IMG/VR virus record: IMGVR_UViG_3300011114_000231
Coordinates: 1 to 56,938 of that record
Length of the DNA: 56,938 nt
From: a virus
Direction: 5' to 3' (one strand)
Shown in pieces: positions 151 through 18,591 of this stretch. Under the pieces are notes generated by a model. That model saw only the letters and a program-made list of their open reading frames with translations. It searched no databases and was not told the origin of the DNA. Both the position numbers and the translations under genes were made by a program. Every line of letters begins with the position of its first letter. Position 1 is the stretch's first letter.

Positions 151-265
151 GTGCCTAACATATTGATTTCATTGCACTTTCTTAATCTATTTTTTAGCTG
201 TTAAGTTAGATAAAACATCTTGACAATCTATATTTCCGCTAAACTTACAGCCCCAAACGGCAAAC

Positions 266-294: not shown

Positions 295-362
295 GGTGGC
301 TCGGTAGGAATTTAACTACTGAATGTATATATAATTTAACTTAACATACGGAGCGTAAAGCT

Positions 363-1061: not shown

Positions 1062-1062
1062 C

Positions 1063-2055: not shown

Positions 2056-2062
2056 GGTCGAA

Positions 2063-2116: not shown

Positions 2117-2138
2117 TAACAATAGTGGAGTGAAAGCT

Positions 2139-2990: not shown

Positions 2991-3000
2991 GGAGATTACC

Positions 3001-4137
3001 ATGACACAAGAACTTTCACGTCGAGTTTCCAAGGCTAAAACAACCCTGTTGTTAGACCAAAAGAGTGCCTTCATTGGCTCTCTTGCTCTTGGTTTGCCTA
3101 CTGTTATCACAGATAAGGTCAAGACTGCCGCTACTGACGGCAGGGTTATCATGTTTAACCCAGAGTTCTGTGCTGATCTGACTGATGAGGAGATGGTATT
3201 CCTCATTGCTCATGAGACCATGCATCCAATGCTTGAGCATAACTATCGTTTGCAAGGCAGAGACCATGTTAGATGGAACAAAGCCGCTGATTACGTAATC
3301 AACCAGCTACTTGTTGAGGAAAAGATCGGTAAGTTCATTGATGGAGGCTGTCTTAACGACAGCCTCTACAAGTCTGGTAATGGTATTACCGACAACATCT
3401 ATGGCATGTTGCCAGATGAGAGCAATGGCAATGGCTCTGGATCAGGTAATGGCGGTATTGGTGATGATATTATCCCCAGTGAAGCCACTGGTGCTGATCA
3501 AGAGGCAGAGATCGGCGAGTGGAAACTCAAGGTAGCTAATGCGGCTCAAGCCGCTAAACTTATGGGTTCACTTAGTGCCAACATGGAGCGTTTTGTTGGT
3601 GAATTGCTTGAGCCAAAGGTAGATTGGCGTGATGTACTACGTGACTTTGTGTTCAAAGCTAAGACTGATGAGCGTAGTTTTGCACGACCTAACCGTAGGT
3701 TTATCAGCCAAGGTGTCTATCTGCCTTCTGTCACTGGTGAAACACTAGGCGATATTGTCATAGCTATTGATTGCTCTGGTTCTATTGGAGCCAAAGAGAT
3801 TGATATGTTTGCCGCAGAGATGAAGGCAATCAAATCTGACGGAAGTCCTACCGCTATGCACGTGGTCTATTTTGACCATGCTGTCTGTCACTATGACAAG
3901 TTCGGTCCTGATGAGGAACTTGTTGTTAAACCACGTGGTGGTGGCGGTACTGCGTTCAGTCCTGTGTTCAAATACATAGAGGACCATGACATAGAGCCTG
4001 TGGCTTGTGTGTTCCTTACTGATCTGTACTGTGATGATTACGGCCCAGCACCAGAGTATCCTGTACTCTGGGCTGTATTCAATGGCCCAAAAGAACCCGT
4101 TGCACCATTTGGTCGGGTAGTAAAGGCAGTAGCATGA
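3001..4137 (+). CDS. Metallopeptidase-like / VWA domain protein (378 aa)
   Basis: Two domains are visible. The N-terminal part has a zinc-peptidase motif HETMH (residues 71-75), as in the DUF2201 family, followed by a Gly/Asn/Ser-rich linker (about residues 139-155). The C-terminal part is a VWA domain with the metal-ion-dependent adhesion site D-x-S-x-S at D257, S259 and S261 (IAIDCSGSIG). Proteins of this layout pair with MoxR ATPases such as the one at 1063. Whether the peptidase site is active or only binds metal is not known. GGAG at 2990-2993 sits 7 bases upstream of the start. Confidence 0.85.
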   Translation: MTQELSRRVSKAKTTLLLDQKSAFIGSLALGLPTVITDKVKTAATDGRVIMFNPEFCADLTDEEMVFLIAHETMHPMLEHNYRLQGRDHVRWNKAADYVINQLLVEEKIGKFIDGGCLNDSLYKSGNGITDNIYGMLPDESNGNGSGSGNGGIGDDIIPSEATGADQEAEIGEWKLKVANAAQAAKLMGSLSANMERFVGELLEPKVDWRDVLRDFVFKAKTDERSFARPNRRFISQGVYLPSVTGETLGDIVIAIDCSGSIGAKEIDMFAAEMKAIKSDGSPTAMHVVYFDHAVCHYDKFGPDEELVVKPRGGGGTAFSPVFKYIEDHDIEPVACVFLTDLYCDDYGPAPEYPVLWAVFNGPKEPVAPFGRVVKAVA

Positions 4138-4307
4138 ACGAAATACTTATTGCTGGGTTAGTTGTTACTAACCTTATTCTGTGTGCTTGGATTATGCTAC
4201 TTGAGCGTAAACTTAGTTCACTTAATTACATTCTCTATAGCGTCGCCATTGGCGACGTTACTGTTACTGTAGTTGATGAATCTATTGTGATCAAAGAGGA
4301 GAAATGA
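4134..4307 (+). CDS. Small single-pass membrane protein (57 aa)
   Basis: Starts at an ATG overlapping the VWA gene by 4 bp (ATGA) and ends in a TGA at 4305-4307. Residues 3-23 form a hydrophobic helix (ILIAGLVVTNLILCAWIMLL) followed by ERK, predicting one membrane span with the remainder in the cytoplasm. Its coding sequence includes a perfect 7-bp hairpin (4241-4257) shortly before the next gene. Coupling to the MoxR/VWA module suggests it could anchor that complex at the membrane; this is inference. Confidence 0.65.
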   Translation: MNEILIAGLVVTNLILCAWIMLLERKLSSLNYILYSVAIGDVTVTVVDESIVIKEEK

Positions 4308-4309
4308 TC

Positions 4310-4960
4310 ATGGCTATTGTACGTTTTTCTAATGAGTTGCAGTCTGCTATACTTACCAAAGCAAGCCAAACATTTGTTCCCCGTATTACAGCGGCGACTA
4401 ACAATATCCCTATGTCTGCTGAAGAACTATATGACAGGATATTTTCACGTTACTTGCCGCATATGGGTATGCTTCCACCAGAGTTCTTTAACTCAACTAG
4501 TATGTTTGGCATACACTCTGTCCATGAAGTACTGTTAAACCATAACTTCAATCTAACAACACCTAAGTTGTTCCCATATAAACTTGGACCACAGCCACAC
4601 TTCAAAGCTACTTTTGACTTTGGTACAGGTGGTACTAGCTATAAACTTATACCAGATGGCACTGGTATATGGGATGATCTTGTCGAGATGGTTCAAACTC
4701 GTAATAATAATATCAAAGCTATAGAAGATCAGCTTAACAAGTTCAAAGATAACTTGCGTGTTATTATGACAACACATTCTACATTAGCACCAGCACTAAA
4801 GGCATGGCCCCCACTGTGGGACTTTGTGCCTGACTCATACAAAGATAAACATCGTGAGATTAAGGAGCGTAAGAAGAACGACAGCGTTAATCTGTCTGAG
4901 GTTATGGACTTGGACTCCATGACTTCTGTGGTTGTGGCAAGCAAATTCTTGGGGAAATAA
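4310..4960 (+). CDS. Hypothetical protein (216 aa)
   Basis: No family recognised. Two in-frame ATGs exist at 4304 and 4310; AGGAG at 4297-4301 is 8 bases from the second and only 2 from the first, so 4310 is preferred. The N-terminal third is helical (RFSNELQSAILTKASQTF), the middle is aromatic and proline-rich, and the C-terminal half has a long charged helix (about 118-140) and a lysine-rich segment (REIKERKKNDS). The layout loosely recalls small phage proteins linked to nucleotide modification, but I cannot support that assignment. It is adjacent to the MoxR module and probably co-transcribed. Confidence 0.6.
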   Translation: MAIVRFSNELQSAILTKASQTFVPRITAATNNIPMSAEELYDRIFSRYLPHMGMLPPEFFNSTSMFGIHSVHEVLLNHNFNLTTPKLFPYKLGPQPHFKATFDFGTGGTSYKLIPDGTGIWDDLVEMVQTRNNNIKAIEDQLNKFKDNLRVIMTTHSTLAPALKAWPPLWDFVPDSYKDKHREIKERKKNDSVNLSEVMDLDSMTSVVVASKFLGK

Positions 4961-4961
4961 C

Positions 4962-5807
4962 ATGCAAAAGTATCCACATCAGCGTAGTGGTAATCAGAAA
5001 CTTATCACAAGTTATACCATGTTGAATAATATGGTGAGTAAGTTGCGCTTTCCCCAAAAGGGGAAGGCGTTAAACCATACGTTCAGAGCGTTCAAAACTG
5101 GTGATACCATACAGGTATGGATTTGTGATGGTCCTAATAAGTCTGTCCACCTGTGTGACCTGACACCTGACAACGTGTTGACGTTTGTTGCTAGCACATT
5201 GAGTATTCGTAACAAAGCACAGACCATAGTTGGTTCGCTACATACCTATCTGCCTGTGTTCTTTACACGGTTCGGTATGGGTAAGTACCGCATAGCAAGC
5301 TATGAGATGGTATTTAATGAGCATAAATCGTTCTGGGATTATTGGAACAACGGTGGTAGCACAACATCGCCACAGTACTTTGCTGGTATACAGTTTGATA
5401 TGGCTAGTGGTGCGTGTCTTAATCGACGGCCTGATCTTAAACACCAAGTTGTATCGGAAGTACGGCGTCAATGGCTAAAAGATATTGCACAATGGCGCAA
5501 AGGCATTGCATTACGTAGCAAATTAGGTGTGCTAGATGCCATAGCACTGGAAGAAAACTTCTTTAAGAGGAACTATAGCAAGCGTTTGGATACTCTATTG
5601 CTTTGCAACCACGTTGTTAAGGCCATAAAGGAACAAGACTTTAGCAAAGATACTCTGGACGTTATCGTATTTAACCTTGGCGTGGCGTATAGGTCGGGGT
5701 TTAGCACGGCTCATCTAGATAATTTCTTTAAGGAACATAGCGTCCAACTGCGTATGGCGTATGGCGTGTTCGGCGAGCACAACAAAAATATTTTTATACA
5801 AACTTAA
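4962..5807 (+). CDS. Hypothetical protein (281 aa)
   Basis: Follows the previous gene after one base, starting MQKYPHQRSG at 4962; a longer in-frame start at 4932 would lie inside the neighbour. The protein is rich in aromatic and basic residues (DYWNNGGSTTS, RRQWLKDIAQWRKG) and has no signal peptide or obvious catalytic motif. It closes the first early transcription block, after which a promoter-like sequence appears. Function unknown. Confidence 0.6.
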   Translation: MQKYPHQRSGNQKLITSYTMLNNMVSKLRFPQKGKALNHTFRAFKTGDTIQVWICDGPNKSVHLCDLTPDNVLTFVASTLSIRNKAQTIVGSLHTYLPVFFTRFGMGKYRIASYEMVFNEHKSFWDYWNNGGSTTSPQYFAGIQFDMASGACLNRRPDLKHQVVSEVRRQWLKDIAQWRKGIALRSKLGVLDAIALEENFFKRNYSKRLDTLLLCNHVVKAIKEQDFSKDTLDVIVFNLGVAYRSGFSTAHLDNFFKEHSVQLRMAYGVFGEHNKNIFIQT

Positions 5808-5810
5808 CCC

Positions 5811-5840
5811 TTGCGTTAAGTATCTGCCTATGCCTATATG
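5811..5840 (+). promoter_or_regulatory. Possible promoter of the nucleotide-metabolism block
   Basis: TTGCGT (5811-5816) and TATATG (5835-5840) are separated by 18 bp, directly after the stop of the 281-residue protein and 27 bp before the next start. TATGAT at 5837-5842 is an alternative -10 with a long 20-bp spacer. This is one of the few intergenic spaces in the left arm, which makes a second promoter plausible, but the match is weak. Confidence 0.3.
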
Positions 5841-5866
5841 ATACACCTGTCACATAAGAGGTGGTC

Positions 5867-6130
5867 ATGAGAGTATACCAGAGGCAGAGAACACCAACAC
5901 TAAAGCCGCCCGTTAAAGGACGGGCGGTTCATCCCTTCGTTGTATGGATGTGGAAGGAGATTAACAACCAGAGAGCATCACAAGAGGACGTTGCTACTAG
6001 GTCTGGCATATCATCTAGTGCCATGAGGAAGTGGAGAACAGGATTACAAGCCCCAACCCTTGCCGCTATGGAGGCAATCATAAACACGTTGGGGTATGAT
6101 CTTGTTATTAGGAGCAAGAAAGATGAGTAG
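5867..6130 (+). CDS. XRE-type helix-turn-helix DNA-binding protein (87 aa)
   Basis: The C-terminal two thirds form a Cro/CI-like helix-turn-helix: a first helix ending ASQEDVATRSG, then ISSSAMRKWRTG as turn and recognition helix, followed by LAAMEAIINTLGYDL. Such proteins are usually small transcriptional regulators. AAGAGG (5856-5861) lies 5 bases before the ATG at 5867; a GTG at 5861 overlaps it and is less likely. First gene after an intergenic promoter-like stretch, so it may control its own operon. No other lysogeny gene is present, so a prophage repressor role is unlikely. Confidence 0.75.
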   Translation: MRVYQRQRTPTLKPPVKGRAVHPFVVWMWKEINNQRASQEDVATRSGISSSAMRKWRTGLQAPTLAAMEAIINTLGYDLVIRSKKDE

Positions 6131-6611
6131 AACTAAATTCAAACATCACGTACTGACCAAGTACTTTATCGAGAACCCACTAGCTACACCCAGAGAAGCG
6201 GCGGCGGCATGTGGAACATCGTGGCAGTATGCCTACTATGTTATCTCTAAGAGGCAGACACCTAAAGAAGTGTTTGTTGCTGAGTCAAAAGCAAAGACAG
6301 ACAAAGATGTTTTTGTGAAGCACGACAAGAACAAGTTACCTTGGCACTTGCTACCCACTGATGCAGTAGAGGAAGTGTTGAAGGTGCTAGCCTACGGGGC
6401 CAAGAAATACTCAGCTAATAATTGGTGCGCTGGTGCTGACTGGAGCCGCTACTATGACGCTATGCAAAGACACCTGTGGTCATGGTGGGCTGGAGAAAAC
6501 TTAGATGAGGAGACTAGGAAGTCGCATCTGGCACATGCCGCATGTTGCTTGTTGTTCCTCATTGCCTACGAGAAACGTAACATTGGAACAGATGATAGGA
6601 GCAAGCCATGA
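6123..6611 (+). CDS. HTH-dATP/dGTP pyrophosphohydrolase-like fusion (162 aa)
   Basis: Residues 1-50 look like a helix-turn-helix (PREAAAACGTSWQYAYYVIS). Residues 65-152 match the dATP/dGTP diphosphohydrolase family (formerly DUF5664, related to MazZ): KHDKNKLPWHLLP, AYGAKKYSANNW (90-101), a conserved RHL (116-118), WWAGENLDEE (121-130) and SHLAHAA (134-140). Known relatives cleave dATP or dGTP to monophosphates, as in phages that alter purine pools. No purZ-like gene is seen, so a 2-aminoadenine genome is not indicated. The start at 6123 overlaps the preceding stop by 8 bp; an upstream in-frame ATG (6096) lies deep in that gene. Confidence 0.7.
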   Translation: MSRTKFKHHVLTKYFIENPLATPREAAAACGTSWQYAYYVISKRQTPKEVFVAESKAKTDKDVFVKHDKNKLPWHLLPTDAVEEVLKVLAYGAKKYSANNWCAGADWSRYYDAMQRHLWSWWAGENLDEETRKSHLAHAACCLLFLIAYEKRNIGTDDRSKP

Positions 6612-6994
6612 AATCCAGTGACGTACTTAGCAATGCAATGCACACATTGCGTGAAAGACAGCGCATATTCGGGGATGCTACCTCGGTGTATGCACGTGGT
6701 GCTGTAATAGCAACTGCGTTACGTGACACAAACACAAACACGTTTGACGTTGTTGTGTCAGAGATCAGTAACAAGTTTAGTAAGCTGTCACAAAACCGTA
6801 TGCACTTGGAGACATGGGTAGAACTATGTCTGGATGTAGCTATCGCGGCTGAACTTGCAATGGAACTGAACATTGTAAATCCTTCTGTGACTATGGCAAA
6901 TTTCAAAGATGATGTTGCCCGTGAACTTGAGGCACAGATTGCTGAAGAAGCAAAGCAGATGGCTCAGAGTATCCATAACATGGATAGGCAATGA
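6608..6994 (+). CDS. DUF6378-like, all-helical nucleotide-hydrolase-like protein (128 aa)
   Basis: Overlaps the previous gene by 4 bp (ATGA). The order of segments, RERQRIFGDATSVYARGA, then a kinase-like spacing, then KFSKLSQNRMHLETWVELCLDVAIAAELA, is typical of phage DUF6378 proteins. Those resemble the all-alpha MazG/NTP pyrophosphatase fold. Standing beside a dNTP pyrophosphohydrolase and a dCMP deaminase, a role in nucleotide-pool control is likely but inferred. A charged helix (DVARELEAQIAEEAKQM) forms the C-terminus. Confidence 0.6.
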   Translation: MKSSDVLSNAMHTLRERQRIFGDATSVYARGAVIATALRDTNTNTFDVVVSEISNKFSKLSQNRMHLETWVELCLDVAIAAELAMELNIVNPSVTMANFKDDVARELEAQIAEEAKQMAQSIHNMDRQ

Positions 6995-7218
6995 AGATTG
7001 ACCCAATCATAAAGAAAGCACTGGAAGAAATTCCAGTGCCATACACACTGGTCAAATCTAAAGACCATTACTTTGTACAAGTTGAAGGTTATCCGCGAGT
7101 TATTATTGCGGGTAATCACCAGAGAACTAAGTGGCACGAAGTACGTGGCACAGTAACAAATATAAATAGATTGGTGCGATCTATAAGTGGAGGTTGTGAT
7201 GATGTACCCACCAAGTAA
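6991..7218 (+). CDS. Small hypothetical protein, possibly dsRBD/HicA-like fold (75 aa)
   Basis: Overlaps the upstream gene by 4 bp. The sequence KSKDHYFVQVEGYPRVII followed by NHQRTKWHEVRGTVTNINRLVR alternates a strand pair with a helix, and has a histidine on the first strand (DHYF). That arrangement recalls HicA-type toxins with a double-stranded RNA-binding-like fold. No HicB-like antitoxin is adjacent, so a toxin role is unproven. It may instead be a small RNA-binding protein. Confidence 0.55.
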   Translation: MKIDPIIKKALEEIPVPYTLVKSKDHYFVQVEGYPRVIIAGNHQRTKWHEVRGTVTNINRLVRSISGGCDDVPTK

Positions 7219-7435
7219 TATATCTAATAATCCATTCGTTGTTTCTGGAGGAACATCTAATCTGATTAGGATTACTGATGGTAAGGATAAACATGTTGAT
7301 ATAACTATGGAGGATTACAAAGAACTATTATTTATCAAAGACTTTATGCACCTGTTTATCCAGCACAATGAGCAAGCCAATAAGATTTGGGTAGCAATGA
7401 AAGCGCAACGCTTATTCTTGGGAGAAAATAAATGA
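7199..7435 (+). CDS. Small hypothetical protein (78 aa)
   Basis: GGAGG (7189-7193) precedes adjacent in-frame ATGs at 7199 and 7202; the exact start is uncertain by one codon. The gene begins within the previous coding region. The N-terminus is polar (PPSNISNNPFVVSGG); the rest contains a strand-like segment (NLIRITDGKDKHVDITM) and a helix (YKELLFIKDFMHLFIQHNEQ). No recognised family. Confidence 0.55.
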   Translation: MMYPPSNISNNPFVVSGGTSNLIRITDGKDKHVDITMEDYKELLFIKDFMHLFIQHNEQANKIWVAMKAQRLFLGENK

Positions 7436-7686
7436 ACAAGGTAGAACGTAAAAGTATGGACCCTGTGTTGTCGGCGGCTGTCGAGTGGACCACAGCACGT
7501 TGGCATATACAACAATCCCCACCAGAGAACCAGCACGAGGCTGATCTATTGAACAGTGCAGAAACCTTATTGCGTAATAGGTTTGAGAGCCTATTGAAGG
7601 ACTATTATAAAGATGTTGCAGAGCATGAGGCTTTGCAGGACCAACTCGTCAAAGACATCAGTGAACTGTTGGGAGAAGTAAAATGA
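7432..7686 (+). CDS. Small helical acidic protein (84 aa)
   Basis: Overlaps the preceding gene by 4 bp. Mostly helical and acidic, ending in a segment with coiled-coil character (DYYKDVAEHEALQDQLVK). No recognised family or catalytic motif. It belongs to the chain of overlapping small genes leading to dCMP deaminase. Confidence 0.55.
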   Translation: MNKVERKSMDPVLSAAVEWTTARWHIQQSPPENQHEADLLNSAETLLRNRFESLLKDYYKDVAEHEALQDQLVKDISELLGEVK

Positions 7687-7802
7687 AATATGTTGTGGTG
7701 TTGCTGGCACTGATGCTTTCAGGGTGCAGTGTGGTTGTGTATAGGGGCGAACCAGTTGATCCCCTCACCCGCAGTACGTACCCACCTGTGGTGAGCAAAT
7801 GA
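7683..7802 (+). CDS. Small lipoprotein (39 aa)
   Basis: A short hydrophobic signal peptide (MKYVVVLLALMLSGC) ends in a lipobox, LMLSGC, with the lipid-modified cysteine at residue 15; the mature chain is only 25 residues and proline-containing. It overlaps both neighbours by 4 bp. Outer-membrane spanins (Rz1-like) are small lipoproteins of this size, but this gene lies in the early arm and far from the lysis cassette at 34082-35905. A superinfection-exclusion or early membrane role is equally possible. Confidence 0.65.
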   Translation: MKYVVVLLALMLSGCSVVVYRGEPVDPLTRSTYPPVVSK

Positions 7803-8236
7803 CTTGGGATAACAGGTTCTTTGATCTAGCAGACATGGTTGGATCATGGTCTAAAGACCCATCAACAAAGGTCGGGGCGGTGATTGTTCGCCCTGATCGT
7901 ACCATTGCAAGCGTTGGGTACAATGGTTTCCCCCGTGGCGTGGATGATAGCCCTGAGATTTATGATGATAGACCAAAGAAGTATATGCGTGTCGTTCACG
8001 CAGAGGCTAATGCTATCCTGTCTGCACGTGAGCCGTTGCACGGTTATACTCTTTACGTAACACCACTGCACCCATGTGCAACATGTTCTGGATTGATCAT
8101 CCAGTCGGGGATCAAGGTTGTTAACTACGCAATGACCAAAGACAACACTCGTAATGAAGCGTGGACTGAACACTTCAACACAATGACAGATATGTTTCTG
8201 CAAGCTGGCATTAGATATTATGGGAGATACAGATAA
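7799..8236 (+). CDS. Deoxycytidylate (dCMP) deaminase (145 aa)
   Basis: A zinc-dependent deaminase that converts dCMP to dUMP, supplying the thymidylate pathway. The catalytic H-A-E is at residues 67-69 and the zinc pair P-C-A-T-C at 92-96; TKVGAVIV and YNGFPRG segments are also typical. Length matches the family. It overlaps the lipoprotein gene by 4 bp. No thymidylate synthase was recognised in the window, so the dUMP product would have to be used by the host enzyme. Confidence 0.92.
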   Translation: MTWDNRFFDLADMVGSWSKDPSTKVGAVIVRPDRTIASVGYNGFPRGVDDSPEIYDDRPKKYMRVVHAEANAILSAREPLHGYTLYVTPLHPCATCSGLIIQSGIKVVNYAMTKDNTRNEAWTEHFNTMTDMFLQAGIRYYGRYR

Positions 8237-8427
8237 TGGAAATTTTATTGGCGGCGTTTCTTATGGCGGCATCGCCAGCCCCATGCAAGACTGTCGTAGC
8301 TATCAAACAAGTGGTCGCTACTAATGAATGGTTTATCAAGCGTACTGAGTCAGGTCCGTGGGTTAGGGTGGACCAGAACTATATCGTTGGACTGAAGTGC
8401 TTCGTCGAGAACGTGGAGATGGTGTGA
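8236..8427 (+). CDS. Small exported or membrane-associated protein (63 aa)
   Basis: Begins one base inside the deaminase stop (TAATG). Residues 1-16 are hydrophobic (MEILLAAFLMAASPAP) and end in small residues, like a signal peptide. The remainder (KTVVAIKQVVATNEWFIKR) is strand-rich with two cysteines that could pair outside the cytoplasm. Function unknown. Confidence 0.55.
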   Translation: MEILLAAFLMAASPAPCKTVVAIKQVVATNEWFIKRTESGPWVRVDQNYIVGLKCFVENVEMV

Positions 8428-8711
8428 TGAACCCGATACAACTAACACACACCTTATATGGGGTGGTATATATGTCGCAAGGTATTGATAACCTTATCAA
8501 TACTATCAACAACAACAATGCAAACGCGAGTAAGACAGAGCAAGATATAATCGTTTGCCTTAGAGATATGTATCAAAACATGACTATTATAGCTAAATCA
8601 TTGGCTCCCATGTTGGAACTGGCAGAGCATGTGATGAAACATCACCCGCAAATAGCAAGTGACTTCGCTACTACAAAAGGTGCGACTAACAAAATACTGG
8701 GGGGCAAGTGA
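8427..8711 (+). CDS. Small helical hypothetical protein (94 aa)
   Basis: ATG at 8427 overlaps the previous stop (ATGA) and has GGAG at 8416-8419; an internal ATG at 8472 is a possible alternative. The protein is helical and Asn-rich (INTINNNNANASKTEQD), with later LAPMLELAEHVMKHH. No recognised family. It ends one base into the polymerase start codon. Confidence 0.5.
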   Translation: MNPIQLTHTLYGVVYMSQGIDNLINTINNNNANASKTEQDIIVCLRDMYQNMTIIAKSLAPMLELAEHVMKHHPQIASDFATTKGATNKILGGK

Positions 8712-10588
8712 TGGATATTGTAACGATTGACTTTGAAACATACTACGACAAGGACTATTCCCTGTCCAAGATGACGACTGAAGCCTATGTAAGAGACCCT
8801 CGCTTCGAGGTTATCGGTGTAGGCATCAAGGTCAATGATCACCCCACTGACTGGTACAGTGGGGATAATGTCGGCAGATTTTTGAAGTCTCTTGACTACA
8901 CCAAGCGGGCTATACTCTGCCACAACACAGCGTTCGATGGTGCTATCCTATCGTGGCACTACGGTATCAAGCCAGCGTTCTGGTTGGACACTCTGTCGAT
9001 GGCTCGACCATTGCACAACATATCTGTAGGTGGTTCGCTCAAGAACCTAGTCGCGTACTACAAGCTGGGCGAGAAGGGCGACGAAGTTATTAACGCTATG
9101 GGTATGCGACGGTCTGACTTCACGACGGAAGGGCTTGCGCGGTACGCATCCTACTGTGTCAACGATGTGGAGTTAACCTACAAGTTGTTCCGTAAGATGG
9201 TTAAGGGGTTTCCATCCAGTGAGTTGCGGCTGATTGACCAGACGTTACGTATGTACACTGAGCCTACGCTTGAGATCGACACGACAGTCTTACACAAACA
9301 TCTTGAGGATATTCTGGAGAACAAGACCACACTAGTGGAGACCCTCGAACTTGGGTGCAGTGAGGATGAAGCTAAGTCTATCCTTATGTCCAACTTTAAG
9401 TTTGCAGATTTTCTACGGGCTATCGGGGTTGAGCCACCGACTAAGCATAGCAAGGCGACAGGTCAGGAGGCATATGCTTTCAGCAAGTCAGACAAAGCGT
9501 TTACTGATCTGTTGGATCACCCCAATATACGTGTTGCCAATGCAGTGGCGGCTAGGCTTGGCGTGAAGTCTACCATTGAAGAGACCCGCACTCGGTCTCT
9601 GTTAGGTGTAGCTGAGCGTGGCACTCTCCCGATCATGCTTAATTACTACGGCGCACACACTGGTCGGTTCAGTGGCGGGGATAAGATGAACCTTCAGAAC
9701 CTACCGAGAGGTGGTTTGCTACGCCGCAGTATAACAGCACCCAACGGTAAAGTTCTTATAGCTTGTGACTCCGCCCAGATCGAAGCCCGTGTTGTTGCGT
9801 GGTTGGCTGGACAAAAGGACTTAATTGCCGCCTTTGCCGAAGGCCGCGATGTCTACTGCGAGTTCGCATCAGAGGTGTATGGTCGCCAGATAACCAAGGC
9901 TGATAAGGTCGAGCGGTTTGTCGGCAAGACTTGTATCTTGGGGCTTGGCTACGGCATGGGTTCGCTCAAGTTCGAAAACACTCTAGCCATAGGGCAAGCT
10001 GGTATCAGCGTTAAGATGGACTCAGATGAGGCTAAGAACGCAGTCAATCTATACAGAACAAAATACCACAAGGTCGCTAGACTTTGGTCCAGATGCAGTG
10101 TCGCGTTGGGTAACATGATTAATGGTCAGGAGTTCTGGTTGAACGATGACATACCTATCATCAAGACGGGCAAGGACTGCATAATTCTCCCCAATAAGTT
10201 GGCAGTTCGTTACCCTCTACTAACCAGGGGTGAGAACTACTCATACGCAGGTGACATAAGAGTGTACAAAGACGCAATTAAAGACCGCGTTATGGGCAAA
10301 CCAATAAACACAGACAAGTTTACACATATTTACGGTGGCAAGGTGACAGAAAATGTCGTGCAAGCTATCGCTAGGATTGTCGTGTCCGAACAGATGACCA
10401 AGATAGGCCATAGATATAAGGTTGTGTTGCAAGTACACGACGAGGTGGTCGTTCTTGTGGATGAGCATGAAGCTGAGAGAGCCAAGGCATACATGATTGA
10501 GGTCATGTCAACGCCGCCATCATGGGCGTTGGATTTGCCAGTGGCTTGCGAAGCTACCATTGGTAACAACTATGCGGAGTGTAAGTGA
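8711..10588 (+). CDS. polA: Family A DNA polymerase with 3'-5' exonuclease (625 aa)
   Basis: The phage replicative polymerase. The N-terminal DnaQ-like proofreading domain starts IDFETYYD (D7, E9). Polymerase motif A is DSAQIEARVV with catalytic D353; motif B is RFVGKTCILGLGYG (402-415); motif C is VHDEVV with D577. There is no 5'-3' exonuclease domain. In motif B the residue equivalent to Phe762 of E. coli Pol I is Leu410, a class common in environmental viral PolA sequences. ATG at 8711 follows a G-rich stretch; an in-frame GTG at 8708 overlaps the previous stop. It heads the replisome gene set. Confidence 0.95.
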   Translation: MDIVTIDFETYYDKDYSLSKMTTEAYVRDPRFEVIGVGIKVNDHPTDWYSGDNVGRFLKSLDYTKRAILCHNTAFDGAILSWHYGIKPAFWLDTLSMARPLHNISVGGSLKNLVAYYKLGEKGDEVINAMGMRRSDFTTEGLARYASYCVNDVELTYKLFRKMVKGFPSSELRLIDQTLRMYTEPTLEIDTTVLHKHLEDILENKTTLVETLELGCSEDEAKSILMSNFKFADFLRAIGVEPPTKHSKATGQEAYAFSKSDKAFTDLLDHPNIRVANAVAARLGVKSTIEETRTRSLLGVAERGTLPIMLNYYGAHTGRFSGGDKMNLQNLPRGGLLRRSITAPNGKVLIACDSAQIEARVVAWLAGQKDLIAAFAEGRDVYCEFASEVYGRQITKADKVERFVGKTCILGLGYGMGSLKFENTLAIGQAGISVKMDSDEAKNAVNLYRTKYHKVARLWSRCSVALGNMINGQEFWLNDDIPIIKTGKDCIILPNKLAVRYPLLTRGENYSYAGDIRVYKDAIKDRVMGKPINTDKFTHIYGGKVTENVVQAIARIVVSEQMTKIGHRYKVVLQVHDEVVVLVDEHEAERAKAYMIEVMSTPPSWALDLPVACEATIGNNYAECK

Positions 10589-10674
10589 TGGATAGGGATG
10601 ACAAGATCGCGTGGATCAAGATCATTATCGTATATATCTTAATAACAATCTTAGCTATATGGGTGAGCCTATGA
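10588..10674 (+). CDS. Mini membrane protein (28 aa)
   Basis: An ATG overlaps the polymerase stop by one base (TGATG), and the stop overlaps the next start. The peptide is MDRDDKIAWIK followed by a hydrophobic segment (IIIVYILITILAIWVSL), a single membrane helix. The exact overlaps at both ends and the clean TM pattern argue that it is translated. Function unknown. Confidence 0.5.
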   Translation: MDRDDKIAWIKIIIVYILITILAIWVSL

Positions 10675-11177
10675 ACGTAGAGAAACTTATTGAGATGTGG
10701 AGAGCAGGTGCTAGCGGCGCTGTTATTGCGGCAAGCCTTGGCGTAACTAGAAGCGCAGTGCTTGGTAAAGTATATAGGCTACGGGAGCAGGGCATACTTG
10801 CTTATAGAAATGCTGAGAAGTCCAAGGTCAAGGTTAAAGAGATCAAAGAACCCAAGGAAGATACCACAAATGTGGTTAGACTGGAACGTAAAGTCCCCCA
10901 TACAACACAGGGAGGGAGCATGTTACGCATACGCCCAGAAGAACCAGAGCAAAAGCCAGTGGTTCCACCACCAATTCCCCAGTATGACCCAGACAAACCA
11001 TACCTAAACATACTGCAACTTAACTTTAATAAGTGTCGGTATATTATGACGGATGATACGTCGGTCAACGCATTTTATTGTGGCGAAACGGTACACCGTA
11101 GGTCATACTGCAAGGCTCACGCAGATATATGTTTAGTGCCAGCACCGAAAAAAGTTAGGGACACAAATGCAGCTTAG
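10671..11177 (+). CDS. gcrA: GcrA-family cell-cycle regulator homologue (168 aa)
   Basis: The N-terminus (EKLIEMWRAGASGAVIAASLG, then VTRSAVLGKVYRL) has the arrangement of the GcrA helix-turn-helix, and the C-terminus has the GcrA-type block KCRYIMTD...FYCGETV...SYCKAHA. Length is close to Caulobacter GcrA (about 173 aa). GcrA binds sigma70-RNA polymerase and activates promoters that carry CcrM-methylated GANTC. A phage copy could redirect host transcription or time it to the cell cycle. The start at 10671 overlaps the preceding stop (ATGA). Between the two domains lies a lysine-rich and proline-rich linker. It strongly points to an alphaproteobacterial host. Confidence 0.85.
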   Translation: MNVEKLIEMWRAGASGAVIAASLGVTRSAVLGKVYRLREQGILAYRNAEKSKVKVKEIKEPKEDTTNVVRLERKVPHTTQGGSMLRIRPEEPEQKPVVPPPIPQYDPDKPYLNILQLNFNKCRYIMTDDTSVNAFYCGETVHRRSYCKAHADICLVPAPKKVRDTNAA

Positions 11178-11826
11178 CCATTCCTTCTCATCTATCAAGT
11201 TGTACGAAAACTGCCCACTCAGGTACTACCATCAGCGCGTTACCAAGAGCGTGGTAGATAAGGGCGGGGAAGCAAGCCAGTATGGGGAACGCATCCATAA
11301 ATTTCTTGAGGAAAGATTGCTCGGAGGAGAGTTGTCCTCAGAGATCGCACACCTTGAGCCGACAGTGGAAGCTATCCTAAAACTTACTGGAAGCGGTGCG
11401 CTTGAGGTTGAGAAGGAACTAACTCTCAATAAGGAACTTACACCCACAGGGTGGTGGGATAAGGACGCATGGATGAGGTCCAAGCTGGACGTGCTGATCC
11501 TGCACAAGAACTCTGCCATAGTTATGGATTGGAAAACAGGCAAGCGTAGACCAGACTTCTCCCAGTTAGAACTGTTTGCTTTGCAGGTGTTCTCCCACTA
11601 CCCTGAGATCGAAACTGTACGCACAAGTTTTGTTTGGATACAGGATAAGGCTATGGACAAAGACACTTACAAGCGGTCTCATGCCCCTGATATGTGGCGT
11701 AAATTGATGAGCCGTATCAATAGGATAGAGCAATCTTTAGAGAAAGATGTATGGCCAGCTAGGCCAAGTGGCTTGTGTAAATTTTGCCCTTGCAAAAACT
11801 TTTGTGATTTTGCACCTAATACTTGA
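11167..11826 (+). CDS. Cas4/RecB-like PD-(D/E)XK nuclease (219 aa)
   Basis: A single-domain nuclease with likely 4Fe-4S cluster. The active site is D108 (SKLDVLIL), D121 and K123 (VMDWKTGK), with Q133 beyond. Cysteines for the cluster are C16 (YENCPLRY) and C204, C207 and C213 at the end; C209 is extra. This is the Cas4/AddB type, and phage members such as DUF2800 occur beside PolA and an SNF2-type helicase in many phages. It overlaps the gcrA-like gene by 11 bp. Likely role: processing of DNA ends in replication or recombination. Confidence 0.87.
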   Translation: MQLSHSFSSIKLYENCPLRYYHQRVTKSVVDKGGEASQYGERIHKFLEERLLGGELSSEIAHLEPTVEAILKLTGSGALEVEKELTLNKELTPTGWWDKDAWMRSKLDVLILHKNSAIVMDWKTGKRRPDFSQLELFALQVFSHYPEIETVRTSFVWIQDKAMDKDTYKRSHAPDMWRKLMSRINRIEQSLEKDVWPARPSGLCKFCPCKNFCDFAPNT

Positions 11827-11852
11827 CACTGATGTAAAGTAGGGGTATATAG

Positions 11853-12197
11853 ATGGCTACACCAGAGGCTAAGGTCAAAGCCAAGATTGATAAGATGTTA
11901 TCCCAGTTCAAAGGTCTGTGGTTCTATAGTCCACAGTCAGGTGTTTATGGGGTAGCGGGGATACCTGATCGTATTGCCTGTGTGGACGGGCATTTCGTAG
12001 GGATAGAAGCCAAAGCAGACAGAACAAAGAAGCCTACCGCCTTGCAACGGCAGTGTATGGCTAAGATAGAAGCGGCAGGGGGCAAGTGCTTCGTCGTGTA
12101 TGATGACGAGACACTAGAGATAGCCAGAGAATACATTTCGGGAGTGCTAAATGTTAGTTATAGAACAAGCCAAGGCTCTAGCCCTAAAGTTGAATAG
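11853..12197 (+). CDS. VRR-NUC domain nuclease (114 aa)
   Basis: A small restriction-fold nuclease. GIPDRIAC holds D39, followed by GIEAKA with E52 and K54, then Q65 in LQRQCMAKI; this is the VRR-NUC arrangement. Family members can cut branched DNA and are frequent in phage replication modules. The 3' end overlaps the helicase gene by 47 bp. The short C-terminal extension (RTSQGSSPKVE) lies in that overlap. Confidence 0.85.
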   Translation: MATPEAKVKAKIDKMLSQFKGLWFYSPQSGVYGVAGIPDRIACVDGHFVGIEAKADRTKKPTALQRQCMAKIEAAGGKCFVVYDDETLEIAREYISGVLNVSYRTSQGSSPKVE

Positions 12198-13713
12198 CCC
12201 TGCACGGGTTCTGGATACTATCCGTGACTCCAAGATGGTCACGCTTCGCGGACAACAAGTTGTTGTAACACCCCATGACATTGATAGTGTGATTGCGCTT
12301 AACGATCTCGGTATCAGTGCGCCTTCTCCTATCCTGCATTACTATGACTGGCCCAGTCAGTTCAAACCATACGACCATCAGCGCAAGACAGCCGCCTTTC
12401 TAACAACCCACAAGAAGTGTCTGGTTCTTAATGAGATCGGCACTGGCAAGACGCAGAGTGCGTTATGGGCGGCTGACTATCTGATGAGTGAGGGCATCGT
12501 TAACAAAGTGCTTATCATCTCTCCGCTCTCTACACTGGAGCGGGTGTGGGGTGACGCTATTTTCAAGGGGTTCTACGAGCGCAGAGCCATTGTCCTGCGT
12601 GGTACGGCTGAGCGTAGGAAGCGGCTGATCCAGAAGGATGCTGACTTCTATATCGTAAACCATGATGGGTTCTCTATCATTGCTACTGAAGCTATCAATA
12701 TGTTTGATCTTGTTATCGTTGATGAGGCGGCTGTGCTTCGCAATGGGCAGACGCAAAGGTTCAAACAGTTCTACAAATGGATGGAGAAGAATCCACAAGC
12801 TAGGCTTTGGTTGATGACAGGTACACCCACTCCCAATGCACCAACAGATGCGTGGGCGTTGGCTAAGCTAGTTGAAAGTCCGTATATCACTGAGCGTTGG
12901 ACTGCGTTCAGAGACCAGACCATGTACAAATACAAGATGCACACGTGGATTGCGCGTCAGGATAGTGTTGACATAGTGCAACACGTTCTCCAGCCAGCTA
13001 TCAGATATACGAGAGATGATTGTTTCGACCTACCTGATACCGTTGTGCAGACACGTAGCGTTGATCTTACACCAGAGCAAGTCAAACACTTCAACGCCAT
13101 GATGAAACATCTTGTGGTGGAGATGAAGAAGTCAGGTGATGAGTCAACCATCAGTGCGGTTAATGAAGCAGTCAAACTCCAGAAGCTGGTGCAGATTGCA
13201 TGTGGTGTGGCATACGACGACAATGGAAACGATGTGGAGGTTGACTGTTCCCCTCGTGTTAATGCTGTCAAAGAGATCATAGACCTCTGTGACGAGAAGA
13301 TTATTATCTTTGTGCCTCTGACAGGAACTCTACATATGTTGGAGCGTGAGTTATCGAAGCACTGGACAGTCGGTGTGGTCAATGGCGCGGTCTCATCTAC
13401 CAAGCGAGATGTGATTTTTGATAACTTCCAGAACCACAAAGACCCGCGTATTCTCATCGCTCATCCAGCTACGATGGCGCATGGGTTAACGCTGACATCT
13501 GCCAGCACAATCATATGGTACGGCCCGATAAACAGTAACGAGCAATACACACAGGCCAATGGTCGCATTGAGCGTATTGGTAAGCGTCACATATCGAACG
13601 TGATCCATATAGAGTCTACAACAGTCGAGCATAAAATGTATGAGCGGCTGTCTAACAAACAGAAACTACAGGGACTTCTATTAGATTTGATAAAGGAGCA
13701 AACATATGACTGA
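12151..13713 (+). CDS. SNF2-type superfamily 2 helicase (520 aa)
   Basis: An ATP-dependent DNA translocase of the SNF2-like group. Visible motifs: Walker A NEIGTGKT (94-101), motif II DEAA (191-194) in place of the usual DEAH, motif III LMTGTP, and a C-terminal motif VI ANGRIERIGKRH. A region rich in charged helices lies between the two RecA-like lobes. It starts inside the VRR-NUC gene, an order (VRR-NUC then SNF2 helicase) well known in phage replication modules. Probable role: fork or recombination intermediate remodelling. Confidence 0.88.
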   Translation: MLVIEQAKALALKLNSPARVLDTIRDSKMVTLRGQQVVVTPHDIDSVIALNDLGISAPSPILHYYDWPSQFKPYDHQRKTAAFLTTHKKCLVLNEIGTGKTQSALWAADYLMSEGIVNKVLIISPLSTLERVWGDAIFKGFYERRAIVLRGTAERRKRLIQKDADFYIVNHDGFSIIATEAINMFDLVIVDEAAVLRNGQTQRFKQFYKWMEKNPQARLWLMTGTPTPNAPTDAWALAKLVESPYITERWTAFRDQTMYKYKMHTWIARQDSVDIVQHVLQPAIRYTRDDCFDLPDTVVQTRSVDLTPEQVKHFNAMMKHLVVEMKKSGDESTISAVNEAVKLQKLVQIACGVAYDDNGNDVEVDCSPRVNAVKEIIDLCDEKIIIFVPLTGTLHMLERELSKHWTVGVVNGAVSSTKRDVIFDNFQNHKDPRILIAHPATMAHGLTLTSASTIIWYGPINSNEQYTQANGRIERIGKRHISNVIHIESTTVEHKMYERLSNKQKLQGLLLDLIKEQTYD

Positions 13714-14113
13714 GCCTAATGTCGATCAGGTTATCGCGGCTTACGTGAAGATGCGGGAGAAGAAGTCACGCATGGAAGCTGAGGTTAAAGCTGAAGTTGC
13801 AAAGATCAATGAGAAACTTATGAAGCTGGAAGGATGGCTTCGTGAGAAAGCAGATGAGCAAGGTGTAACATCCTTCAAAACTAATCATGGTACTGCGTTC
13901 ATGACCACTGTGGACTTCGCGTCCGTTGCTGATTGGGATGCTGTGCTTAACTTCATCAAAGAGAACGATGCGTATGACATGCTGGAACGTCGTGTGAGTA
14001 AGACGGCAGTGCGTGGGTACATCGAGGCTAACAAATCTATTCCTGCTGGTATTAACTATGGGACCAAGCTGGAAGTTAATGTACGTAAACCAACTGCGAA
14101 AGTGGAGGACTAA
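13706..14113 (+). CDS. Coiled-coil hypothetical protein, Gam-like in form (135 aa)
   Basis: Overlaps the helicase end by 8 bp. Residues about 12-55 form a heptad-like coiled coil (REKKSRMEAEVKAEVAKINE). The C-terminal half is folded (NHGTAFMTTVDFASV; RRVSKTAVRGYIEAN). The layout resembles phage proteins sometimes labelled Gam-like host-nuclease inhibitors; I cannot confirm this from sequence alone. The replication-module location supports a DNA-associated function. Confidence 0.55.
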   Translation: MTEPNVDQVIAAYVKMREKKSRMEAEVKAEVAKINEKLMKLEGWLREKADEQGVTSFKTNHGTAFMTTVDFASVADWDAVLNFIKENDAYDMLERRVSKTAVRGYIEANKSIPAGINYGTKLEVNVRKPTAKVED

Positions 14114-14114
14114 T

Positions 14115-14423
14115 ATGTTTGGGTCTTGGGTACGCAAACAAGTAGCTGACGCTATGTATGAGAACAGCATGGACCAAAAAACACCTGCTACTAAACTTGG
14201 TCTATATGGTGAATCATATATAAGTGTACATACTATTTCCAATGGTTACTTATTACAGGTCAACAGTATTAATATAGGGGGTCCAACGATAGTTTATTGT
14301 AAGGACCAACAGGAAATCTCTGACCAGATTGTTACACTCCATGCTCGTGAACGCATGGGTATATCACCTAACGTCAAGATAGGGCCATTCATGTCTTCTG
14401 GCTCTGCCCAATCTTCTATTTAA
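14115..14423 (+). CDS. Hypothetical protein (102 aa)
   Basis: Starts MFGSWVRKQVADAMYEN one base after the preceding stop. A longer reading of the same frame from 14013 lies inside the neighbour and is rejected. Contains a strand-rich middle (YISVHTISNGYLLQVNS) and a terminal helix. No recognised family. Confidence 0.5.
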   Translation: MFGSWVRKQVADAMYENSMDQKTPATKLGLYGESYISVHTISNGYLLQVNSINIGGPTIVYCKDQQEISDQIVTLHARERMGISPNVKIGPFMSSGSAQSSI

Positions 14424-14446
14424 CCCGCTCAACACAGGAGAATCCT

Positions 14447-15415
14447 ATGAGCAATATCGTACCAGCTAACCTTAAAATTCCTGCACACCTTGCAGATCGT
14501 ATTGGTAAGCCTTCAGCACTATCCGTCGCATTGGCTAGCGGCCTTGGTGGCAATGGCGGTCCAAGTTTTCCTCGCATCTCCATCAAAGGGTCACGCTTTC
14601 GTATCGTAGAGGACGGAACTGAGACCGTAGTGGACAGCACATCTCTGGCTGTCATTATTGTCGGTGCTAATCCACGTGCCTCTAAAGTATGGTACGCAAA
14701 GGCATGGGATGGCAACGCAGAACCAGCCGCTCCAGATTGCTACTCCCTTGATGGCACTGGCCCACATCCTGATAGCACTTCTCCGCAGAATGATATGTGT
14801 GCTACCTGCCCTCATAACGCTTGGGGTTCCAAGACTTCTCCTACTGGCTCCCCAATCAAGGCTTGCTCTGACCGTAAACGTCTAGCTGTTGTGGCCGCAG
14901 ATGATCCATCTGGTCCTGTATACTTGTTGGAGGTTACTCCAGCGGCTATGAAGGGTCTTAACTCCTACCATAAAGAACTTGCACATCGCGGTATTGATCC
15001 AGAGATCGTGATTACCAAGCTGTCGTTTGATACTGATGCGTCTTTCCCCAAGCTTCAGTTTAGTTTGGGCGGCTTCATCGACGTGGGTACGCTTGAAGCT
15101 ATTGAGGGTCTGTTCGACTCTGATAGTGTTAAGGATGTTATTGGTGTGTCCCAACCTAAAGTTGCCGCACTTCCTGCTCCTACGCCACGCCCATCTCCAG
15201 TGAAACAGGTTGCGGCTCCAGTACAAGAGCCAGAGCCAGAGCCTGTTGTCGAAGAAAAACCTGCTCCAAAGCGTGGATTTGGTGCGGCTAAAGCCGTCGC
15301 TCCTGCTCCAGTTAAGGAAAAGCCAGCACCTAAAGCCGCTCCTGTGGTAGCAGATGGTGGTCTGTCTGATGAGATCATGGGTTTGTTGGATGAGGTAGAA
15401 GCTGATGACGCATAA
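14447..15415 (+). CDS. Putative ssDNA-binding protein with Cys cluster (322 aa)
   Basis: Residues 1-230 form a compact domain with cysteines (APDCYSLDG, MCATCPHN, KACSDRK) that could bind zinc. A proline/alanine-rich linker (about 240-300) leads to an acidic tail, DEIMGLLDEVEADDA. An acidic C-terminal tail after a flexible linker is the hallmark of single-stranded DNA-binding proteins, used to recruit partners. The position in the replisome set is that usually taken by DUF2815-type SSB analogues. AGGAG (14436-14440) lies 6 bases before the ATG. The SSB role is inferred. Confidence 0.6.
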   Translation: MSNIVPANLKIPAHLADRIGKPSALSVALASGLGGNGGPSFPRISIKGSRFRIVEDGTETVVDSTSLAVIIVGANPRASKVWYAKAWDGNAEPAAPDCYSLDGTGPHPDSTSPQNDMCATCPHNAWGSKTSPTGSPIKACSDRKRLAVVAADDPSGPVYLLEVTPAAMKGLNSYHKELAHRGIDPEIVITKLSFDTDASFPKLQFSLGGFIDVGTLEAIEGLFDSDSVKDVIGVSQPKVAALPAPTPRPSPVKQVAAPVQEPEPEPVVEEKPAPKRGFGAAKAVAPAPVKEKPAPKAAPVVADGGLSDEIMGLLDEVEADDA

Positions 15416-15686
15416 GCCACTCGACTTTCATAAGGTTGAGGCTTTGCGTAAGCACATGATACTAACGTCGTCTGACATGGCTAAAGTACTCGGAGTTTCT
15501 CGCGTGACCTACTACGGTTGGTTGCGCGGGAAAGCGGTTCGCCGCAAGAACGAGGATGAAGCTAAGAAGGCAGTGCGTAAACTGTTGGCTATCATGACTG
15601 ATCATAGCTGGCCCTCACCTGAGACCGTAGCCCTCGATCAAAAGCAGAGAAGCGAAAGATTGTTTGCTTTGCTAGGGCAGTATTAG
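15405..15686 (+). CDS. Helix-turn-helix protein (93 aa)
   Basis: Overlaps the SSB-like gene by 11 bp. The N-terminal region reads DMAKVLGVSRVTYYGWLRGK, a clear helix-turn-helix with WLRGK after the recognition helix. A lysine/arginine-rich segment (RRKNEDEAKKAVRKLL) follows. Probably a regulator or a DNA-binding accessory factor; its stop precedes a strongly structured leader for the primase gene. Confidence 0.65.
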   Translation: MTHKPLDFHKVEALRKHMILTSSDMAKVLGVSRVTYYGWLRGKAVRRKNEDEAKKAVRKLLAIMTDHSWPSPETVALDQKQRSERLFALLGQY

Positions 15687-15697
15687 TAGACTGGATA

Positions 15698-15729
15698 GAC
15701 AGGGGGTAGGGAACTCCCTGTCACCCCCT
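15698..15729 (+). promoter_or_regulatory. Competing hairpins in the primase-helicase leader
   Basis: Two alternative foldings can be drawn. GACAGGG (15698-15704) pairs with CCCTGTC (15716-15722). Alternatively AGGGGGT (15701-15707) pairs with ACCCCCT (15723-15729), with AGGG/CCCT (15708-15711 with 15716-15719) inside. The two cannot form together. The ribosome binding site GGGAG (15730-15734) begins one base after the second stem. This could tune translation of the primase-helicase; the effect is inferred. Confidence 0.6.
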
Positions 15730-15741
15730 TGGGAGAGTAAT

Positions 15742-18591
15742 ATGAATACGCTGGATTTTCTTCGGCGAGTTTTGCCGACTGAAGGCTTATATGTTTCTGT
15801 AGTTGTTAATGCTAAATATACCAGACAGGGGTTCTACGATTCCATAGATAAGTTGTCAGATGCCGTCACCGCATTGAGTGATAGTGGCAACAATGTTTAT
15901 TATGCTGTGGCTTCTTTTGCTGATCGTGCTGGTGGTCGCAAGCAACCAAACGTGCATTTGCTGAAGGCTCTTTACCTCGACGTTGACTGTGGTGAGGACA
16001 AACCGTTCTTCGATTGGAAGGACGGCCTTAAAGCTATTGGTAAGTTTATCGCAGACACTGGTCTGCCCAAGCCTATGATTGTTCGATCAGGCAATGGACT
16101 TCATGTGTACTGGGTATTAGACCGTGAGTACTCCAGAGCCGAGTGGCAACCAGTAGCCGAGATGCTCAAAGCCTCCACATCTGCACATAACTTTGAGGTT
16201 GATCCAGCAGTCCCTGCCGACAGCGCACGTGTTCTTAGAGCAGTGGGGACTATCAATCCAAAGGGCGGCAACACGGTAACGAAAATCATAGACGCTAGTC
16301 CAGTTGATTTAGAAACACTTAAAAACATATTGTCAAAGTACGTACCGACCACACGGGTATTCACAACCAAGCCTAAGACAAGTTCCTTGCTGGATAATCT
16401 AGCAGTTAAGTCTGACTACCCAGAGGCAGACCCCTCCATCATTGTAAACAAGTGCGCTCAGTTAACGCATATAACCACCAACCAGAAAGATATTTCTGAG
16501 CCACTGTGGTACGCCGCCCTGGGAGTAGCCGCGTATTGTATCAACCCAGAACAAACTGCCATAGAGTGGAGTCAGTATCATCCTAGCTTCGACCCGAACG
16601 AAACCATTCGGAAGATGGAGCAAGCCAAGGCCAACACCACTGGACCGTCTCTATGCTCAAGGTTTGAGAGTGAGAACCCCAATGGATGTAAGGGTTGTGT
16701 ATTCAAAGATAGAGTGAGTACCCCCGCCAGACTGAGCGTTAACTACGCCGCTATTGACCCAGATGACAATGCCCCAGACGACATAGTTAAAACTATAGCA
16801 GTGCCTTGGCCCTTCAAGCGCACGGCAAGCGGCATGAAGATGACGATCAATGACGTTGATACAGACGTTTGCAAGTTCGATATATACCCAGTTGGCTATG
16901 GTAGGGATGAAACCCTTGGATATGAGACTGTGCGTTATAGGTGGAACCGTCCTCATGTGGGATGGCAACCTCTTATCTTTAGGCAAGCCTACCTCAACGA
17001 CACAAGCAGAGAGTTTGCTGGGTGCATAGCTGACCAAGGTATTGTGCTACAGAACAGGAAGCAGACGGAGAATTTTCAGTACATGCTCAGATCATATATG
17101 GACGAACTGCGGCAGTTACGTTCTATGAGTAACCTGTACGCATCAATGGGGTGGAAGGAAGGCAACACTCAATTCCTCCTTGGTGACAACTTGTTTAAGC
17201 AAGACGCAACTGGTTCCGCAGTGCAAGAGCAAGCGTCATTCGCGGCTAATACCCACCGCACTGTCGAGCCTATGTTCATAAGTGCTGGCAGCGTAGATGG
17301 GTGGGCTAAGTTCACATCTCTTATCGAAAAAGCAAACATGCCTATTCACGGGTTCGCTTTGCTCGTGTCCATGTCATCGCCGCTGTACAAATTTACTGGG
17401 CTAAAAGGCCTGACAATAAATCTATATGGACCAACAGGTGCTGGTAAAACTCTAGCGCAGTACTGGCAACAGTCCGTGTGGGGTGATCCAGAGAAGCTAC
17501 ACTACACAGCCAAGTTCACACAGAACGCTTTGTATGCACGTATGGGGCTGTACAATAACCTGCCAGTCACCATCGACGAAACTACTATGATGCAGTCTAA
17601 AGATGTCGGGGACTTTCTGTACTCCGTATCACAGGGCAAAGAGAAGGCCAGACTTAACCGCAACGCTGAAGAGCGCGACACAAAAACGTGGAGTACTGTG
17701 GTAACAACGTCATCAAATAGGTCGATGAGTTCCATGCTCGTAGCCTCTGGACTTGAGACCGATGCACAGATGGCGCGTCTGCTTGAGATCACAGTGGAGA
17801 AGCATCCACTTCTGGTGCGTAGCACAGAAGCTGGTCAAAAGATGTATGAGTTCATTACAACTAACTACGGTACGGTTGGCCCAGCTATCATAAAACATCT
17901 TATGGAGCTAGGCGAAGATAACATACGGCTTTCTATCCAGAACCATAAGGCCATGTTCTATGCCCAATATAATTGTGAGTTTACTGGTAGTGAGCGCTAC
18001 TGGGAACAGGCTATTCTCCTAGCAGATTATATTGGTAAGATCGCCAAGAGCCTTGATCTAATCCAGTTCAACCATTCTAAGTGCATAGAGCATGTCCTCA
18101 AACAGATCGGAGCGATGCGTAAGGCTGTGAAGGAGAATAGCGTGGATGCGTTTGATGTGATCACGGAATACATCAACGAACATTCTGGCAATACAATCAC
18201 GGTCATGCACACTGGAACCAATAAGCCTCAACCTAACTCAAACCGTATACCTAGAGGTAGCGTATGCATTAGGTTCGACCTTTACCGTCCAACACAGATT
18301 GCCCCATTTGATAGAGGCACTGTGCTGTTTGACCGTAAGCATTTCAGAATGTGGCTAGCCACAAAGGGCGGAGACTATCGCTCTCTTGTCCGCGAGATCA
18401 CAATGGCTGGGGTGCAAGCTACGCCCCAATCAGAGAAAGCGTTCCTCGGTAAAGACACTGACATCAAGCTTGGACAGCAATACGTGTTGGGAGTTAGCCT
18501 CAACCATCCTCGCCTTGCTGGTGTGTTGAATGACGCAGACGATGCCGCCATGTCTGCGCCACTTAATGTTATACAGGGTGGTAAGAATTAA
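15742..18591 (+). CDS. Primase-helicase with AEP-like primase (949 aa)
   Basis: The N-terminal third resembles archaeo-eukaryotic primases: LYLDVDCGED supplies D80 and D82, and SGNGLHVYWVL and PADSARVLRAVG follow, as in RepB/prim-pol-type primases. A cysteine segment (NPNGCKGCVF) follows. The helicase part has Walker A GPTGAGKT (563-570) and an acidic Walker B-like NLPVTIDETT, as in DUF927/D5-like phage helicases. It would prime and unwind at the fork with PolA. It is the last gene of the left arm and ends in the 4-bp TTAA shared with the convergent giant-protein gene, with no terminator between. Confidence 0.85.
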   Translation: MNTLDFLRRVLPTEGLYVSVVVNAKYTRQGFYDSIDKLSDAVTALSDSGNNVYYAVASFADRAGGRKQPNVHLLKALYLDVDCGEDKPFFDWKDGLKAIGKFIADTGLPKPMIVRSGNGLHVYWVLDREYSRAEWQPVAEMLKASTSAHNFEVDPAVPADSARVLRAVGTINPKGGNTVTKIIDASPVDLETLKNILSKYVPTTRVFTTKPKTSSLLDNLAVKSDYPEADPSIIVNKCAQLTHITTNQKDISEPLWYAALGVAAYCINPEQTAIEWSQYHPSFDPNETIRKMEQAKANTTGPSLCSRFESENPNGCKGCVFKDRVSTPARLSVNYAAIDPDDNAPDDIVKTIAVPWPFKRTASGMKMTINDVDTDVCKFDIYPVGYGRDETLGYETVRYRWNRPHVGWQPLIFRQAYLNDTSREFAGCIADQGIVLQNRKQTENFQYMLRSYMDELRQLRSMSNLYASMGWKEGNTQFLLGDNLFKQDATGSAVQEQASFAANTHRTVEPMFISAGSVDGWAKFTSLIEKANMPIHGFALLVSMSSPLYKFTGLKGLTINLYGPTGAGKTLAQYWQQSVWGDPEKLHYTAKFTQNALYARMGLYNNLPVTIDETTMMQSKDVGDFLYSVSQGKEKARLNRNAEERDTKTWSTVVTTSSNRSMSSMLVASGLETDAQMARLLEITVEKHPLLVRSTEAGQKMYEFITTNYGTVGPAIIKHLMELGEDNIRLSIQNHKAMFYAQYNCEFTGSERYWEQAILLADYIGKIAKSLDLIQFNHSKCIEHVLKQIGAMRKAVKENSVDAFDVITEYINEHSGNTITVMHTGTNKPQPNSNRIPRGSVCIRFDLYRPTQIAPFDRGTVLFDRKHFRMWLATKGGDYRSLVREITMAGVQATPQSEKAFLGKDTDIKLGQQYVLGVSLNHPRLAGVLNDADDAAMSAPLNVIQGGKN

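Follow-up and report, generated by a model that had tools for sequence, protein, structure and literature searches.

GcrA, an alphaproteobacterial protein that switches on cell-cycle genes at methylated DNA, makes the connection between DNA methylation and the cell cycle in these bacteria. A reading frame in a viral genome record (IMG/VR IMGVR_UViG_3300011114_000231, analysed over its 56,938 nucleotides and called the window here) raises the question of whether a phage can carry a complete GcrA of its own and, if so, which promoters such a protein would serve.

Family identity and residue changes

The reading frame at 10671-11177 (plus strand, ATG start, TAG stop) encodes 168 amino acids, and its product matches the Pfam GcrA profile PF07750 with 65.6 bits (E 8.8e-18), where the curated cut-off is 26.9 bits. 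The alignment takes residues 3-157 of the product to positions 8-147 of the 155 in the profile and covers both profile halves, which led us to reject a chance match to a helix-turn-helix as the explanation of the score. In phmmer searches, Caulobacter crescentus GcrA (7ye1_G) aligned over residues 3-163 (E 2.3e-10), and the DNA-binding domain (5yiu) and the sigma-interaction domain (5yix), which were crystallised separately, were both matched. No second GcrA was found in the whole record. These comparisons confirm, at the level of sequence, a full-length but strongly diverged GcrA homologue. A reading of the window made from its sequence alone had claimed both GcrA halves at near-normal length; the profile, PDB and structure comparisons bear this out, as does the length of 173 residues in C. 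crescentus GcrA.

The product and C. crescentus GcrA (7ye1, 5yix, 5yiu) have the same order of parts: a helix-turn-helix, a disordered linker and a Cys-rich sigma domain. The structure was modelled with AF2 from an alignment of 76 rows that combines GcrAs of viruses and hosts; this model replaced a single-sequence one whose C-terminal half had a pLDDT of ~45. The N-terminal helix-turn-helix (residues ~1-42; 10671-10796, plus strand) is modelled with pLDDT 94-97 as three helices at residues 3-11, 16-23 and 27-39, and matches 5yiu with an E of 0.0027. The charged, proline-containing linker that follows (residues ~47-108; 10809-10994, plus strand) has low pLDDT over most of its length and is probably disordered; in C. 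crescentus GcrA, residues 46-107 form an unstructured linker (PMC7403470). The C-terminal sigma-interaction domain (residues 109-156; 10995-11138, plus strand) has a pLDDT of ~74-94, and Foldseek ranks 5yix_B first among the matches of the model. 5yix_B is the sigma-interaction domain of GcrA in complex with domain 2 of sigma70, and the match has a prob of 1.00, a TMt of 0.77 and an rmsd of 2.1 A over 48 columns, with an E of only 0.077 as the domain is small. With VIA-align, residues 109-156 score a Z of 6.0. As host GcrAs are part of the alignment behind the model, this likeness depends in part on the sequence evidence and serves as a consistency check.

Compared with 80 host GcrAs, the window protein retains the conserved C/C/C/H of the C-terminal block (C122, C137, C147, H150), the DNA-binding core TRxAVxGKxxR (T26, R27, A29, V30, G32, K33, R36), and also G138 and Y146. 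It shares the Cys/His block and the TRxAVxGK core with C. crescentus GcrA, to which it is ~30% identical. Other residues that are invariant in the 80 host proteins are changed: at the N-terminus the W of WTDE is absent, LGG is reduced to LG by loss of its second G, and N28 is S (TRN to TRS); at the C-terminus W124 and P125 are replaced (WP to YI), G127 is T, P129 is D and F134 is A, so that the host motif CKWPIGDP (CxWPxGDP) reads CRYIMTDD. The protein thus lacks the host-invariant W, LGG, TRN and CxWPxGDP that mark canonical cellular GcrA. A number of these substitutions and losses are also seen in other viral GcrAs, and some could abolish the reading of methylated GANTC or the contact with sigma70.

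Operon context and the gcrA slot in related phages

The gene lies where the earlier reading had placed it, between a polymerase and a nuclease. Upstream is a family-A DNA polymerase (8708-10588, plus strand; PF00476, 1.7e-35) and downstream a PD-(D/E)XK or RecB-like exonuclease (11167-11826, plus strand; PF12705, 1.4e-16; phrog_69 exonuclease, 2.3e-21), whose start is overlapped by the last 11 nt of gcrA. A 28-codon frame, read directly from the sequence, may encode a hydrophobic peptide of 28 residues at 10588-10674 (plus strand); its start overlaps the polymerase stop (TGATG) and its stop overlaps the gcrA start (ATGA). Since this frame overlaps both neighbours, the ATG at 10671 is favoured over a longer GTG start at 10611, and polymerase, 28-codon frame, gcrA and nuclease look like one translationally coupled unit. 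They belong to a rightward replication arm (1-18591) that also encodes an AAA ATPase, a VWA/metallopeptidase DUF2201 protein, a dATP/dGTP pyrophosphohydrolase, a dCMP deaminase, an endonuclease matching phrog_93, a SNF2-like helicase, so named after an annotated homologue in Rhizobium phage RHph_TM3_14A, and a DUF927 protein. A mainly leftward structural arm (tail, portal, terminase) occupies 18592-55418; near relatives of the window phage (L270-L273) have a portal with 96% identity to its own. No tRNA was found in the record.

The function that we propose, and give an even chance, is that of an early sigma70 cofactor, most likely for methylated-GANTC promoters of the host, that secures S-phase functions. 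Expression would come early in infection, together with that of the phage polymerase, from the operon that the two genes share. Binding of the C-terminal domain to domain 2 of the host sigma70 is expected from what is known of the family, and the helix-turn-helix would direct the holoenzyme to some promoters only, most likely those of the host with methylated GANTC (the biochemistry of C. crescentus GcrA is summarised in PMC7403470). Activation of these promoters could make replication, nucleotide supply and other S-phase functions available at any stage of the cell cycle. The same role has been proposed for gp222 of phiCbK (PMC3556154) and for Agrobacterium phage Atu_ph08 (PMC6630229).

The slot between polymerase and nuclease varies across the 14 related loci that we inspected, where it holds a dCMP deaminase, a lone Bac_DnaA_C domain, a sigma-region-4-like helix-turn-helix (alike in L008 and L010), or little. 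The lone DnaA C-terminal DNA-binding domain stands in the gcrA slot of two sister phages (L006, 10424-10711; L007, 10292-10576), and a further genome, L046, has a gcrA together with a weaker DnaA-C match. A GcrA-like gene is present in three of the 37 polymerase-related records, a lower bound because many of these are fragments. Two (L045 and L046) score over the cut-off, both at positions other than that of the window gcrA; the third, in RHph_TM3_14A, is a weaker match that consists of the sigma domain alone. Among the relatives of the window phage, gcrA is an accessory gene.

The protein of RHph_TM3_14A (L004, 10939-11154), 71 residues long and called hypothetical, consists of a GcrA sigma-interaction domain without the DNA-binding half; it keeps the C, C, C, H and RWPIGE, and is identical in TM27A, TM27B and TM29. 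Such a protein fits a competitor for sigma, the more so as the genome of RHph_TM3_14A has 0 GANTC where ~164 are expected. The window protein might likewise be a decoy or competitor: bound to sigma70 domain 2 or to GcrA sites but activating nothing, it would uncouple the GcrA-dependent transcription of the host during infection. The altered residues of its own sigma domain (WP to YI, GDP to TDD) point the same way, but it has both halves and the DNA-binding core, which fit an activator better, and we regard a decoy as unlikely.

GANTC content and the likely promoter targets

We counted GANTC in the window against expectation. The whole record has 110 sites where an order-2 Markov model expects ~153 +/- 14. 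Markov nulls were complemented by a shuffle of synonymous codons in gene models picked by hand from the list of open reading frames, and under this shuffle the depletion is found mainly in the replication arm: its coding sequence has 14 sites against 44.1 +/- 4.8 (z -6.2; 0.32 of expectation), that of the structural arm 86 against 97.8 +/- 7.5 (z -1.6; 0.88 of expectation). CCNGG is also scarce, with 2 sites against 22 expected in the replication arm (0.09) and 52 against 89 in the structural arm (0.59). The contrast between the arms in GANTC is unlike what we saw in the relatives checked, where avoidance is either genome-wide or nearly absent; a mosaic origin, a host shift and selection on the first-entering arm are candidate causes.

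Depletion of GANTC is not a trait of GcrA carriers, an idea that we considered and rejected. The polymerase relatives split into some that are near GANTC-free throughout the genome, such as RHph_TM3_14A and G011 (4 sites against ~169), and others with normal content; and the pooled ratio of observed to expected sites is 0.35 at 74 viral GcrA loci and 0.35 at 64 host gcrA loci. Given this equal depletion and the split among relatives, depletion is likelier a mark of the kind of host than of the gene, and since most of the depleted relatives have no gcrA, the gene is dispensable, which counts against the proposed function. GANTC depletion in pelagiphages was published earlier (PMC9516812).

Between the genes of the window, no significant concentration of GANTC was found. 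The ratio of intergenic to coding density is 2.93 near host gcrA genes, which may overstate the genome-wide value as these loci are all centred on gcrA, and 1.22 in the GcrA-bearing viral loci. In the window it is 1.52, with 10 intergenic sites against ~6.6 expected, which is non-significant. Sites outside large reading frames lie at 823, 4278, 14440, 52920, 54871 and 56503, and most intergenic gaps have none. These few sites and the ratio above 1 would suit a protein that activates the phage's own GANTC promoters once the host CcrM has methylated the incoming DNA. The earlier reading had suggested a take-over of the phage's own methylated promoters, but the three-fold depletion in the replication arm and the non-significant intergenic excess speak against it, as does the failure to find a methylase of the N6_N4_Mtase family in the record in a search by that family name; we hold this to be quite improbable. 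Host promoters are the likelier targets, because the replication arm avoids GANTC and viral GcrA loci hardly concentrate it between genes.

The protein may also have left methylated GANTC altogether. It could be a sigma70 cofactor that is independent of methylation and acts at middle or late promoters of the phage through another site. The gaps without GANTC and the altered recognition region (LGG to LG, N28S), which about one viral GcrA in four shares, argue for this, although the core TRxAVxGK is kept, and we consider it possible but rather improbable. Doubtful, too, is a version in which DNA reading was rewired off methylated GANTC, with the sigma70-recruiting half directed to unmethylated or other sites of the phage itself while the replication arm was purged of GANTC.

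The sequence content bears also on the host, whose class the earlier reading took the gene to name. Nearly all cellular GcrA matches are alphaproteobacterial, the replication arm is depleted of GANTC as are other GcrA-bearing phages and host gcrA loci, and on this indirect evidence an alphaproteobacterial host is likely; the structural arm, which lacks this depletion, does not fit as well. Nor do two public GcrA phages listed under a cyanobacterial host, the Synechococcus phages Ssp-JY42 (H21) and Yong-M4-211 (H22), in which GcrA is annotated; for these, the host label may be wrong, or phage GcrA may be less specific to one class than assumed.

Phage-borne GcrAs and their relation to host copies

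Phage-borne GcrA is already known, and the window gene adds a divergent member. A homologue was published in phiCbK-like phages in 2012 (PMC3556154), and GcrA-like genes are on record in Agrobacterium phage Atu_ph08, in brucellaphage Y17 (PMC11836647) and in a coral Rhizobiales virus (PMC11309003). Like the window protein, phiCbK gp222 and its homologues in other Caulobacter phages have both GcrA halves, and gp222 also adjoins a polymerase-type gene, gp221, annotated with a Pol I palm domain. Their sequences are distant from the window protein, and the phiCbK-like genomes exceed 200 kb, whereas the window record has 57 kb and is kin to RHph_TM3_14A. The C. crescentus gcrA differs from the window gene in its setting, which here is a phage replication operon.

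Single-sequence scans with the window protein returned no relatives in public phages or viral contigs, and its highest identity to any sequence found is ~37%. A tblastn search with C. crescentus GcrA matched 34 public phage records, and the scan of viral sequences gave 97 related stretches, from which 80 loci were kept (one being the L046 record again). IMG/VR viral GcrAs such as L098, L094 and L092 are at most ~37% identical to the window protein; L098 shares with it GVTRSAVLGKVFRL and CRYP, and L094, which is likewise without the N-terminal W motif, is located near VRR-NUC-like and SNF2-like genes. In a quick, weakly supported tree of viral and host GcrAs, the viral and host labels change 4 times, against 23.4 times when shuffled. 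Most phage copies stand apart from host copies in this tree, and for that reason they are probably not recent captures. For the window gcrA, whose branch is long (2.01) and which falls in none of the groups starred for support, recent capture from a host is likewise not favoured, given the low identity and the largely separate rows of viral and host proteins.

This diversity makes phage GcrAs a set of natural variants for finding the residues that read methylated GANTC and those that touch sigma70, for which the lone sigma domain of the Rhizobium phages would be a particularly clean probe. A protein of Phaeobacter phage MD18 (L087, 1480-1854) has a near-host GcrA DNA-binding domain (WTD, LGGVTRNAVLGK) joined to a C-terminus that is unrelated to GcrA and has no Cys block.
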